Below, piece by piece: positions 37,767-40,546 of a stretch of 40,546 nt of DNA. A program made the translations under genes and the position numbers. The DNA is taken from positions 1 to 40,546 of the IMG/VR virus record IMGVR_UViG_3300009515_000005, one strand, 5' to 3'. Positions within the stretch are counted from its first letter, which is position 1, and each line of letters begins with the position of its first letter. The notes under the pieces were generated by a model. It ran no database searches. It worked only from the letters and a program-made list of their open reading frames with translations, and was not told the origin of the DNA. Source of the DNA: a virus.

Positions 37767-38105
37767 TCAGCCCTCCTTGGTTACTGTCTCCTTTTTCTTG
37801 GCTAAAATCCGCTTGGTCCACATCTCAAAAGTGACCGACTTGATATAGGCATCAACGGCATTTTGGATTTCCTCTAACAGGTCAACAATCTCCGTATGAT
37901 TATGCCCGTCTTCCTTCAATCCATACTTTGGGTCGAACAGTTCCTCACAGTCCCCGATTACATTAGCATCACAGTAATCATGGAGATCAGAAAAACATTT
38001 GACTTTATCGAGGGGCATTTGGTCAGTCAACATCATCCACTTGACTTCCCCGATAATATCATTAATCTTTTTCAACTTTAAATCTTCTCTATCTTGCGTT
38101 TTCAT
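37767..38105 (-). CDS. Acidic early protein of unknown function, first gene after ribozyme 1
   Basis: A 112-residue helical, acidic protein (KKINDIIGEVKWMMLTDQMP, and NHTEIVDLLEEIQNAVDAYI). No motif recognised. Its mRNA would begin 28 nt before the ATG after ribozyme cleavage between 38134 and 38133, with AGGAGG in the leader. It is followed 1 nt later by the gene ending at 37499, without a ribozyme. Confidence 0.6.
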   Translation of the reverse strand: MKTQDREDLKLKKINDIIGEVKWMMLTDQMPLDKVKCFSDLHDYCDANVIGDCEELFDPKYGLKEDGHNHTEIVDLLEEIQNAVDAYIKSVTFEMWTKRILAKKKETVTKEG

Positions 38106-38127
38106 AATTACCTCCTAAAAAGTTTTA

Positions 38128-38178
38128 AACTCAGACGCCCCGAAGGGCGTTTCGACCTTAAGGTCTCATCAGTGAGTT
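38128..38178 (-). ncRNA. Hammerhead ribozyme 1 (type I), class A
   Basis: Read on the minus strand: stem I 5' arm AACTCA (38178-38173), core CTGATGA (38172-38166), stem II GACC-TTAA-GGTC (38165-38154), core GAAA (38153-38150), stem III ACGCCC-TTCG-GGGCGT (38150-38135), cleavage nucleotide C (38134), then stem I 3' arm TGAGTT (38133-38128). All invariant core positions of the hammerhead are present, and the cleaved triplet is GUC. Ends lie in stem I, so it is type I. The UAA stop of the upstream gene (38179-38177) overlaps the first two stem I bases. Identical in sequence to ribozyme 4. Confidence 0.95.
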
Positions 38179-38617
38179 AACGGACATTGAGACGGAAGAC
38201 TCTTGAATCCGTCTCGATGAACTTATAGGACTGTGTACCATGTTTGAGAGCTGTCCATAAACTCGAGGCGGCTCGGTCACGACGGTCTATTTTACGTTCG
38301 TCGTCCGGGAACTTAAAAATGGTATTGACAAGAGACTCAATCGTAAGTTTGGTTTGTTTGTTATCAAGGAAAGCCTGAGTCGCAGCTTCATGATACTTCT
38401 TACCTTGATATTTCTGACGAATGAAAATTTTAATGTCGTCAGGGTTTTTGGTTTTTGTATGGATCTTTAAAGGTTTTGCACCACCTGTTGAAGCAACACC
38501 ATGATGCTTTTTATAGAAGCGGACCAATCTTTCTAAAACCACATCAGCTCCCTCCCAATCAGTATCCATTTTCCGCAGTTCACGATGGATCTCGTCTGAA
38601 ACTCTTAGCTCTTTCAT
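38177..38617 (-). CDS. Early protein with possible ribbon-helix-helix N terminus
   Basis: A 146-residue basic protein. The N-terminal 40 residues (MKELRVSDEIHRELRKMDTD, then EGADVVLERLVRFYKKH) look like a ribbon-helix-helix or SeqA-like N-terminal domain. The C-terminal 90 residues (about 50-146) form a separate mixed domain (DDIKIFIRQKYQGKKYHEAA, and AASSLWTALKHGTQSY), which I do not recognise. It is flanked by ribozyme 2 upstream and ribozyme 1 downstream. Its mRNA would start 37 nt before the ATG after cleavage. Confidence 0.6.
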   Translation of the reverse strand: MKELRVSDEIHRELRKMDTDWEGADVVLERLVRFYKKHHGVASTGGAKPLKIHTKTKNPDDIKIFIRQKYQGKKYHEAATQAFLDNKQTKLTIESLVNTIFKFPDDERKIDRRDRAASSLWTALKHGTQSYKFIETDSRVFRLNVR

Positions 38618-38647
38618 AACTTTGCTCCTTCAAAAGTTTTAATGTTT

Positions 38648-38710
38648 AAACACTGACGCCCCCAAGTTGCCTTGGGGGCGTTTCGTCCTTATGGACTCGT
38701 CAGAGTGTTT
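38648..38710 (-). ncRNA. Hammerhead ribozyme 2 (type I), divergent copy
   Basis: Minus strand: stem I AAACACT (38710-38704) with AGTGTTT (38654-38648); core CTGACGA (38703-38697, the variable position is C); stem II GTCC-ATAA-GGAC (38696-38685); GAAA (38684-38681); an 11-bp stem III (38681-38671 with 38666-38656) with a GCAA tetraloop; cleavage C at 38655, triplet GUC. All three stems differ from the other copies by compensatory changes. The 3' end of the upstream gene runs into the ribozyme: codons for NTLTSP overlap stem I and the core, and the UAA stop is in loop II. Confidence 0.94.
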
Positions 38711-38922
38711 TCAAGTTTGTACTCTTCGGCATGATCGAAAACCCAACCTTCACCACTCATCCAAGTTGCGATGTGAAGAGGATATTCTTTGATGTCCTCT
38801 AAGTAGTAAAGAGTCAGTTTCTTTCCGTCTTCGATGTAGGGACTTGCTACCAAACCTGTGAGACCGAATTCTTTGACCAATTTGTTTTCAAAATCTCTCT
38901 TAGTAATCTTAATCCGTTTCAT
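38689..38922 (-). CDS. Small early protein whose 3' end overlaps ribozyme 2
   Basis: A 77-residue protein with a basic N terminus (MKRIKITKRDFENKLVKEFG), then an alpha/beta pattern with aromatic residues (KKLTLYYLEDIKEYPLHIAT). No motif recognised. The last six sense codons and the stop lie inside the hammerhead, which is unusual and makes ribosome passage and RNA folding compete. Its own mRNA would start at 38952, after ribozyme 3, 30 nt before the ATG. Confidence 0.65.
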   Translation of the reverse strand: MKRIKITKRDFENKLVKEFGLTGLVASPYIEDGKKLTLYYLEDIKEYPLHIATWMSGEGWVFDHAEEYKLENTLTSP

Positions 38923-38946
38923 TTTGTCTCTCCTTTTAAAAGTTTA

Positions 38947-38997
38947 AACTCAGACTCCCCGAAGGGAGTTTCGACCTTATGGTCTCATCAGTGAGTT
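38947..38997 (-). ncRNA. Hammerhead ribozyme 3 (type I), class B
   Basis: Minus strand: stem I AACTCA (38997-38992) with TGAGTT (38952-38947); core CTGATGA (38991-38985); stem II GACC-ATAA-GGTC; GAAA; stem III ACTCCC-TTCG-GGGAGT; cleavage C at 38953, triplet GUC. Compared with class A it has a stem III T-A pair in place of G-C and loop II ATAA in place of TTAA. Sequence identical to ribozyme 5, which is on the opposite strand. The upstream gene's UAA (38998-38996) overlaps stem I. Confidence 0.95.
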
Positions 38998-39208
38998 ACT
39001 CAATTGGATGCTGACTTCTGAAAAACTCTAAAGCCATATAGAGACAGTCTGCGTGATTGTGAACAATAAAAGTATTTTTAGTGGGACTTCCATTTGGGTT
39101 GTGTAAACTACATCTGAAAACTAATTCAGTGTGCATGATTTCTCCACTGCAACCCAAGCAATCAGTATTGTCTTTACTTTTATCAAATTCTGAGGTTTCA
39201 ATTTTCAT
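38996..39208 (-). CDS. Small zinc-finger-like protein
   Basis: A 70-residue protein with several potential metal ligands: DCLGCSGEIMHTE, then FRCSLHNP and VHNHADCLY. A Cys-x2-Cys pair and later His and Cys residues suggest a zinc-binding fold of the treble-clef kind, though the spacing is not diagnostic. It lies between ribozymes 4 and 3. Its cleaved mRNA would begin 30 nt before the ATG with a conserved TTTTAAAAGGAG leader. Confidence 0.6.
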   Translation of the reverse strand: MKIETSEFDKSKDNTDCLGCSGEIMHTELVFRCSLHNPNGSPTKNTFIVHNHADCLYMALEFFRSQHPIE

Positions 39209-39232
39209 TTTGTTGCTCCTTTTAAAAGTTTA

Positions 39233-39283
39233 AACTCAGACGCCCCGAAGGGCGTTTCGACCTTAAGGTCTCATCAGTGAGTT
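39233..39283 (-). ncRNA. Hammerhead ribozyme 4 (type I), class A
   Basis: Minus strand: stem I AACTCA (39283-39278) with TGAGTT (39238-39233); core CTGATGA (39277-39271); stem II GACC-TTAA-GGTC; GAAA; stem III ACGCCC-TTCG-GGGCGT; cleavage C at 39239, triplet GUC. Identical to ribozyme 1 across all 51 nt, although about 1.1 kb away. The upstream gene's UAA (39284-39282) overlaps stem I. Confidence 0.95.
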
Positions 39284-39557
39284 AGGCACCAATTGCATTC
39301 CAATAACCATCTGCAACTACTCGAGTCCAATTCTTTCTCTTAGTGGAATAAAATTCCGGAACAGAACCCGTGAAATGGATAATTGCCTCACACATGAAAT
39401 CAAGATTGATGATGTCTTTATCTCTAACCACTTTATTGATTACATCCTTCCAATCTTTTTTAACTACAAGATTGAGTTGCTGCTTCATTGCAGTTTGTAC
39501 ATGGTCATCAAAAACTTCTACATACTCATACTTGCCATCAATCAGTTTCAGTCCCAT
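39282..39557 (-). CDS. First leftward early gene, unknown function
   Basis: A 91-residue protein (MGLKLIDGKYEYVEVFDDHV, then MKQQLNLVVKKDWKDVINKV). It is mixed strand and helix, with a hydrophobic C-terminal half ending in a YWNAIGA tail. No motif recognised. It is the promoter-proximal gene of the leftward operon, has AAGGAG upstream, and is followed at once by ribozyme 4. Confidence 0.65.
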   Translation of the reverse strand: MGLKLIDGKYEYVEVFDDHVQTAMKQQLNLVVKKDWKDVINKVVRDKDIINLDFMCEAIIHFTGSVPEFYSTKRKNWTRVVADGYWNAIGA

Positions 39558-39593
39558 TTGTTTTCTCCTTAGTTAAATTTATATTACTTAAAT

Positions 39594-39622
39594 AATATAT
39601 AGTAAAGTGCTGGTTTTGTAAA
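39594..39622 (-). promoter_or_regulatory. Leftward early promoter
   Basis: On the minus strand: -35 TTTACA (39622-39617), 17-nt spacer (39616-39600), -10 TATATT (39599-39594). Matches are 5 of 6 at each box. It would start transcription near 39587, about 30 nt before the ATG of the first leftward gene. The -35 lies in a near-palindrome TTGTTTACAA, and the spacer holds a copy of the GTGCTGGTTT repeat (39607-39616). Confidence 0.72.
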
Positions 39623-39711
39623 CAAGAATATTACAAAATAAGGATAAAAAAGGCTTTTTGGCTGACAATTTTTGTCACTGGGAAAAAAGTGCTGGTTTAT
39701 TTCACTTTACT
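39601..39711. promoter_or_regulatory. Candidate operator region between the divergent promoters
   Basis: This stretch has a perfect 6-bp inverted repeat TGACAA-TTT-TTGTCA (39663-39677). It also has a direct repeat GTGCTGGTTT at 39607-39616 and 39689-39698, and a 9-bp inverted pair AGTAAAGTG (39601-39609) and CACTTTACT (39703-39711). The arrangement around two promoters suggests binding sites for a regulator that controls both early operons. The protein is not identified; a small ribbon-helix-helix candidate is encoded in the leftward operon. Confidence 0.5.
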
Positions 39712-39712
39712 G

Positions 39713-39741
39713 TGTACAATAGGGGGAAAAGGTACTATATT
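39713..39741 (+). promoter_or_regulatory. Rightward early promoter
   Basis: TGTACA (39713-39718) and TATATT (39736-39741) with a 17-nt spacer; 4 of 6 and 5 of 6 matches to consensus. Transcription would start near 39748, about 36 nt before the ATG of the first rightward gene. Confidence 0.6.
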
Positions 39742-39783
39742 ATATAAGTATTGATTAACACCGATTTTTAAGGAGACAAAAAA

Positions 39784-39975
39784 ATGAATATGGCCCAGGT
39801 ACGATTCAATAAACATCTTCAAGCAGCAGAAGCTAATCTCAAAGCTGTCAAAAAACAAATCAACCAATTGAAAAAAGATCGTAACAAGAAAGCTGATAAA
39901 AGTGGTTGGCAGTATGTTGCTGACATGAACCATCTTGCAGACAGTTTGCAAGATTTAATTTGGGAGGAAAATTGA
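39784..39975 (+). CDS. Small coiled-coil protein, first rightward early gene
   Basis: A 63-residue helical protein (RFNKHLQAAEANLKAVKKQI, then NQLKKDRNKKADK). AAGGAG lies 8 nt upstream of the ATG. It is rich in Lys and Asn, with a strong coiled-coil pattern, and probably oligomerises. Its stop is 1 nt from the next start, with no ribozyme between. Function unknown. Confidence 0.6.
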   Translation: MNMAQVRFNKHLQAAEANLKAVKKQINQLKKDRNKKADKSGWQYVADMNHLADSLQDLIWEEN

Positions 39976-39976
39976 T

Positions 39977-40210
39977 ATGACTTTAAAAGAAGCGAAGAGA
40001 GAAGCTTGGAAAAATCAAAATCCAATCATTACTAAAGTAGATGGGCATGACGAATATGTGTGGTTTCCTTCCCACTGTTTTGACAGTCAAAAAGATGTCT
40101 TCACAACTGTTATGGATGTTACTCCAATTTATTGGTGGAGTAGTAAGGACCGAGAATGGAAGGAATTCAAAAATAAACTTGCTCAAGAAGTTCTGCAGGA
40201 AATCCAATAA
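39977..40210 (+). CDS. Small early protein of unknown function
   Basis: A 77-residue protein, mixed helix and strand with several Trp and Tyr residues (MTLKEAKREAWKNQNPIITK, then DEYVWFPSHCFDSQKD). No motif recognised. GGAGG-like sequence lies in the end of the preceding gene. Its UAA stop (40208-40210) overlaps stem I of ribozyme 5. Confidence 0.6.
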   Translation: MTLKEAKREAWKNQNPIITKVDGHDEYVWFPSHCFDSQKDVFTTVMDVTPIYWWSSKDREWKEFKNKLAQEVLQEIQ

Positions 40211-40259
40211 CTCACTGATGAGACCATAAGGTCGAAACTCCCTTCGGGGAGTCTGAGTT
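40209..40259 (+). ncRNA. Hammerhead ribozyme 5 (type I), class B, plus strand
   Basis: Plus strand: stem I AACTCA (40209-40214) with TGAGTT (40254-40259); core CTGATGA (40215-40221); stem II GACC-ATAA-GGTC (40222-40233); GAAA (40234-40237); stem III ACTCCC-TTCG-GGGAGT (40237-40252); cleavage C at 40253. Identical to ribozyme 3, though it belongs to the opposite operon. It would leave a 30-nt leader before the ATG at 40284. Confidence 0.95.
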
Positions 40260-40283
40260 TAAACTTTTAAAAGGAGAAATAAA

Positions 40284-40546
40284 ATGACTAGTGAAGAGTT
40301 GGAAGAAAGAGCAAATCGCTTAGAAGAAATCAAAGATGAAATAGAAGGCCTCTTGGATGAAGCAAAGCAATGTGTGAGAGGTACTTCTGAAGAAGAAAGA
40401 GCCCATGGTTATTGGTACGCCCATATCACTACTGCTTTAAGTGATGACCATTCTTATCTTGGTGGGTCAATGTGTACCATGCAAAGTTCTGTTGAAAGCC
40501 TTATGAGAGACTCAGAAGAAAAAGAAGATGAAGAGGAAGACGAATC
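40284..40546 (+). CDS. Acidic early protein, truncated by the window end
   Basis: At least 87 residues, incomplete at the 3' end. It starts MTSEELEERANRLEEIKDEI, strongly helical and acidic, with a middle part YWYAHITTALSDDHSYLGGS and a C-terminal acidic run. AAGGAG lies within the conserved post-ribozyme leader. No family recognised. Confidence 0.7.
   Translation, partial: MTSEELEERANRLEEIKDEIEGLLDEAKQCVRGTSEEERAHGYWYAHITTALSDDHSYLGGSMCTMQSSVESLMRDSEEKEDEEEDE

Follow-up and report, generated by a model that had tools for sequence, protein, structure and literature searches.

Predicted type I hammerhead ribozymes between single genes on the two arms of a divergent region in an uncultured tailed phage

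The virus record IMGVR_UViG_3300009515_000005 of IMG/VR is a linear sequence of 40,546 nt, and the whole of it is the window analyzed here. Between 38,125 and 40,262 it carries five complete type I hammerhead ribozymes, each located between two genes and in the same sense as the genes it separates. We consider these five elements to be probably active hammerheads that work as intergenic cleavage modules, with mRNA processing as the likeliest function of the array. This reading is favored because the ribozymes lie in the sense orientation, are placed between a stop codon and the next Shine-Dalgarno (SD) sequence, have compensatory stem changes around an invariant core, and recur in many viruses.

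The pattern CTGANGAGNCCNNNNGGNCGAAAC has exactly five matches in the window, against a chance expectation of 0.1 when three mismatches are allowed. Four are on the minus strand (38149-38172, 38680-38703, 38968-38991, and 39254-39277) and one is on the plus strand (40215-40238). Each copy has the CUGANGA strand, a stem II of the form GNCC/GGNC, GAA, an A15.1-U16.1 pair, and a GUC triplet, and all five conform to the hammerhead core (C3 U4 G5 A6 N7 G8 A9, G12 A13 A14, A15.1-U16.1, H17). Stem I has at least 6 bp, stem II 4 bp, and stem III 6 to 11 bp; since stems II and III are closed by loops while stem I is open, the copies are of type I. On the minus strand, hammerhead ribozyme (HHR) 1 occupies the a/b gene junction (39230..39284; core 39277-39239, predicted cut 39239/39238), HHR 2 the b/c junction (38944..38998; core 38991-38953, cut 38953/38952), HHR 3, a diverged copy, the c/d junction (38646..38710; core 38703-38655, cut 38655/38654), and HHR 4 the d/e junction (38125..38179; core 38172-38134, cut 38134/38133). 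HHR 5 is on the plus strand at the p2/p3 junction (40208..40262; core 40215-40253, cut 40253/40254). The original prediction from this DNA had named five complete type I hammerheads, split four to one between the strands and sharing the sense of their neighboring genes; we located all of them with their cores intact, and the five cleavage sites it gave agree with our predicted cuts.

Standard models detect these elements poorly. The Rfam search suggested along with that prediction does match all five, but under the gathering cut-offs of both families concerned: the copies score 28-33 bits with RAGATH-1 (RF03152), whose cut-off of 56.3 bits none of them reaches, and 25-28 bits with Hammerhead_3 (RF00008). 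Routine Rfam annotation would therefore overlook the whole array. A covariance model that we built on 50 type I hammerheads from other viral contigs, with the window left out (model R1), recovers the five copies at 58.4-67.6 bits (E 3.4e-14 to 8e-17). HHR 1 and HHR 4 each score 67.6 bits (E 8e-17), HHR 2 and HHR 5 each score 65.7 bits (E 2.8e-16), and HHR 3 scores 58.4 bits (E 3.4e-14). The runner-up in the window reaches 15.8 bits (E 0.049) and is without the CUGAUGA strand.

The arrangement around the ribozymes is unusually regular. All five junctions follow a constant order of stop codon, ribozyme, cut, leader of 28-37 nt with an AAGGAG-type SD, and ATG. The gaps that hold a ribozyme, always one copy, measure 73 nt (a-b, b-c, and p2-p3) or 71 nt (c-d and d-e), and gaps of 71-73 nt are confined to these junctions in both arms. 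The UAA stop belongs to the distal stem I region of four copies. Copy 3 has it in the loop of stem II, and gene c consequently overlaps HHR 3. Elsewhere the genes are closely packed and ribozyme-free, with gaps of 1 (e-f), -34 (f-g), 9 (g-h), and -4 nt (h-i) in the minus arm and 1 nt (p1-p2) in the plus arm. Thus, the proposal that the array lies between consecutive single genes holds at five junctions and fails at p1-p2 and throughout e-f-g-h-i.

The copies and their viral relatives give evidence for maintenance of the fold. Copies 1, 2, 4, and 5 hardly differ from each other and are therefore of little informative value; HHR 1 and HHR 4 share the same core, as do HHR 2 and HHR 5 on opposite strands. 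Copy 3 has compensatory changes in stem I (ACUCA/UGAGU to ACACU/AGUGU), in stem II (GACC/GGUC to GUCC/GGAC), and in its 11-bp stem III, and its core differs from the others at the free position 7 alone. In the set of 50 viral relatives, pairing holds for 98.8% of the stem cells counted, double changes occur in 10 of 13 pairs, and the pairing and covariation score is well above those of shuffled and slid controls. HHR 2 and HHR 5 also sit within a pair of inverted arms (38919-39014 and 40192-40287; 96 nt, 91% complementary) that flank the putative divergent promoters. Recombination between these arms would flip the region yet preserve the sense of the ribozymes.

A further constraint emerged from 100 viral hammerheads, among the matches listed, that have a 6-bp stem I and a loop II of 4-5 nt. 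The final base of loop II and the one directly after stem I form a Watson-Crick combination in 98 of the 100 (A-U in 51, U-A in 38, and G-C in 9), with a mutual information of 1.29 bits; every other loop-flank pair that we tested reaches at most 0.78. The base on the 5' side of stem I opposite the covarying base is mostly unpairable with it (T-T, A-A, C-T, or T-C in 91/100). The arrays in two loci, L013 and L058, each mix the A-U and U-A classes, and the covariation is therefore not a matter of lineage alone. Hammerheads that the model found in viruses with related terminases behave likewise: six of them have a loop II of 4-5 nt, and in a by-eye count that assigns 4 bp to stem II, five of these six conform to the pair. 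The covariation apparently reflects a tertiary contact between stem I and stem II, and the A-U pair, present in all window copies, may favor activity at cellular Mg2+. We also considered a longer pseudoknot between the loop II sequence UUAA and the downstream GUUUAAAC and rejected it, as the covariation is limited to the single adjacent pair. Tertiary contacts of type I hammerheads have been described as Hoogsteen-type and those of type II as Watson-Crick. Perreault et al. (PMC3088659) reported pseudoknots in about 40% of hammerheads. In the accessible literature we found no description of the single loop II/post-stem-I pair, and we regard it as a lead toward a possible new tertiary contact.

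Similar modules occur in other viruses. Our viral scan covers at least 120 stretches; together with four earlier loci and the five copies of the window, it yields at least 116 complete type I hammerheads. Among the matches listed, 98 hammerheads have sufficient flank, and on the sense strand a long open reading frame (ORF) ends upstream and another starts downstream in 51 of them, compared to 8 in the same test on the antisense strand. Upstream stops, again among the matches listed, concentrate from -12 to +12 relative to the start of the core. At least 17 viral hammerheads have the core CUGANGA positioned so that its own UGA would act as the stop of the upstream ORF. Arrays are found as well, with five hammerheads per whole record in G020 and in G007 and four in G008. 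Thirty-five intervals between hammerheads, among the matches listed, hold one ORF in 13 cases (three of them from the window) and two in 7 cases. Among the array records searched, the window alone has copies on both strands; each of the others has them on a single strand. Judged by sequence, hammerhead modules are widespread yet patchy among viruses. The survey yields two checkable generalities for viral type I hammerheads, namely, the layout of stop codon, ribozyme, and SD and the covarying pair. Searches with short queries also gave matches in Streptomyces phages, mostly partial matches to stems, with one real core in phage Alvy (NC_054669.1, 51434-51479, minus strand; L251 101-150). That core overlaps the annotated start of gene 89, which may have been set too early. 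An exact pattern search of genome contigs found no host or cellular relatives of the hammerheads.

How might the array work? Polycistronic RNA would be transcribed leftwards and rightwards out of a control region at 39.56-39.78 kb, and each ribozyme would fold as its spacer emerges, cutting after GUC at 28-37 nt ahead of the next ATG. The mRNA upstream of the cut would retain stems II and III as a hairpin end flush with a 2',3'-cyclic phosphate, and the downstream mRNA would start with a 5'-OH and a short, weakly structured leader containing the SD. Genes a-e and p2/p3 would in this way be uncoupled onto separate mRNAs that decay independently, and translation would not read over from one to the next. 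Cleavage in vivo, its co-transcriptional timing, and its effects on stability and translation are what we infer from this anatomy, and the divergent operons would presumably be expressed early. The maturation of polycistronic RNA into single-gene mRNAs, as originally proposed with cuts that might require no host RNase, is still the likeliest reading of the anatomy, with the qualification that the array skips some junctions. A bolder and rather doubtful version is that the accessory region is a ribozyme-punctuated transcription unit, in which the 5'-OH and cyclic-phosphate ends evade host decay and the stop codon inside the ribozyme coordinates termination with cutting. If true, most junctions in both divergent arms would self-cut into monocistronic mRNAs, and the decay evaded would be that beginning at 5'-phosphate or single-stranded 3' ends.

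Several observations weigh against mRNA processing as the function. Ribozymes are missing from the p1-p2 junction and from e-f, f-g, g-h, and h-i. Recent duplication alone explains part of the conservation, given the near-identity of four of the five copies. None of four named phages with related terminases (RcRudolph, Epa5, MW2, and YuA) has a hammerhead, and of 33 viral contigs with related terminases only 6 contain any, one or two each; this group can therefore do without the function. Predicted folding gives a mixed picture. For a transcript that stops at stem I, the hammerhead fold of every copy lies no more than 1 kcal/mol above the minimum. When the SD region is included, folds without stem I are better by 2-6 kcal/mol in nearest-neighbor energy in four of the five; the optimum of copy 2 retains the hammerhead stems. 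A slow ribozyme could therefore misfold once the SD has been transcribed. Cutting before or shortly after SD synthesis would escape the alternative fold. We also asked whether an uncut ribozyme hides the SD as a general switch, and this is unsupported, the predicted SD accessibility being 0.55 in uncut transcripts and 0.52 with shuffled ribozymes.

The position of the stop codons could point to a regulator rather than to constitutive processing: a terminating ribosome would unfold the ribozyme, so that translation of the upstream gene would delay cutting or be coupled to it. Stops do overlap the ribozymes, in distal stem I in four copies and in the stem II loop in copy 3, and both their clustering at -12 to +12 in the viral sample and the use of the core UGA in at least 17 cases fit such gating. 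However, the overlap may merely reflect compactness and a sequence rich in UGA and UAA, and the related SD-hiding idea failed generally (accessibility of 0.55 versus 0.52 with shuffled ribozymes). We consider translation-gated cutting unlikely. Less likely still is that cleavage is incidental and that the 66-96 nt block of stop, ribozyme, and SD is a copied spacer that spreads, swaps small accessory genes, or inverts the region by recombination. The identical cores of HHR 1/4 and HHR 2/5, the 91% complementarity of the 96-nt inverted arms, and the orphan genes between the ribozymes are all compatible with this idea. Yet a homology block requires no invariant core, no compensatory stems in copy 3, and no covarying tertiary pair, and in other viruses unrelated sequences hold the same positions. 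Finally, stem III with its UUCG loop is a stable hairpin, and the elements might be noncatalytic structured spacers acting as terminators or 3' stabilizers. This we think very improbable, as all five keep an intact catalytic core and none is followed by a terminator-like T run.

The genes served by the array are small and mostly without kin. On the minus strand are gene a (39282..39557, 91 amino acids [aa]), an orphan of no family with an AAGGAG SD and a codon score that favors its frame; gene b (38996..39208, 70 aa), an orphan likewise preceded by AAGGAG, whose codon score of -0.14 is the lowest yet still the top among its six frames; gene c (38689..38922, 77 aa), an orphan whose stop is the UAA in the HHR 3 stem II loop; gene d (38177..38617, 146 aa), an orphan called from the ORF list, family searches, and codon score; and gene e (37767..38105, 112 aa), which ends the ribozyme-separated series. 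On the plus strand, p1 (39784..39975, 63 aa) is followed after 1 nt, without a ribozyme, by p2 (39977..40210, 77 aa), whose UAA stop overlaps stem I of HHR 5, and then by p3 (40284..40544, at least 86 aa), truncated at the contig end. With codon usage learned from the structural genes as the measure, the annotated frame ranks first among six in all twelve small genes, by a small margin for some. No relatives of genes a-e or p1-p3 were found in the loci and collections searched, only weak subthreshold family matches. The two arms diverge from a control region (39558..39783) with promoter-like sites at 39622-39594 on the minus strand and 39713-39741 on the plus strand, both consensus matches only. 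Near these sites, a 13-nt exact direct repeat, AAAGTGCTGGTTT (39604-39616 and 39686-39698), looks like an operator pair.

The record encodes terminase, portal, major head, and tail proteins and therefore belongs to a tailed phage. The terminase shares 58-60% identity with its counterparts in YuA-like phages and relatives, whose genomes measure 58-65 kb, so this record probably lacks part of the genome. The contig end truncates the plus arm, which may contain more. We found no DNA similarity between the array region and named phages. Upstream of the terminase genes, a Band_7/SPFH domain protein (958-1485; Pfam E 3.6e-15) is unexpected cargo for a tailed phage.

The original prediction implied that hammerhead arrays among phage genes were new, which is not the case. 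Perreault et al. (2011, PMC3088659) described clustered prophage hammerheads that flank single genes and proposed processing to single-gene mRNAs; three arrangements cleaved in vitro, and the one from Agrobacterium tumefaciens also cleaved in Escherichia coli. A 2017 review (PMC6155905) regards the question of what hammerheads do in bacteria and phages as still open. As in the prophage clusters of Clostridium scindens, Azorhizobium caulinodans, and A. tumefaciens (PMC3088659), neighboring hammerheads in the window flank genes or short blocks and have the same proposed role, and several of them, at five junctions, flank individual phage genes on the sense strand. Unlike those clusters, the window has five copies of one nearly identical module with one gene per interval in the minus arm, and its array, set among orphan genes of an uncultured tailed phage, spans the two divergent arms. 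The best Rfam matches, RAGATH-1 and Hammerhead_3, have the same core, whereas the window copies score under both gathering cut-offs and have the stem order of type I, not type III. The nearest modules, in IMG/VR contigs L001-L004, share a stop in or near the ribozyme, a 6-bp stem I, a 3' GUUUAAA, the SD, and ATG, but they occur as a single copy per contig, and no genes were found in common. Theta ribozymes of gut phages (PMC10879173) are also small self-cleaving ribozymes that trim the phage's own transcripts, although they have an HDV-like fold and lie beside tRNAs rather than between protein genes. Because the window array is regular and compact and has internal controls in the ribozyme-free junctions of the same arms, it is well suited to testing the mRNA-processing hypothesis. 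Altogether, it is a regular, well-formed case of a known kind, set apart by its two-arm arrangement and one-gene spacing.

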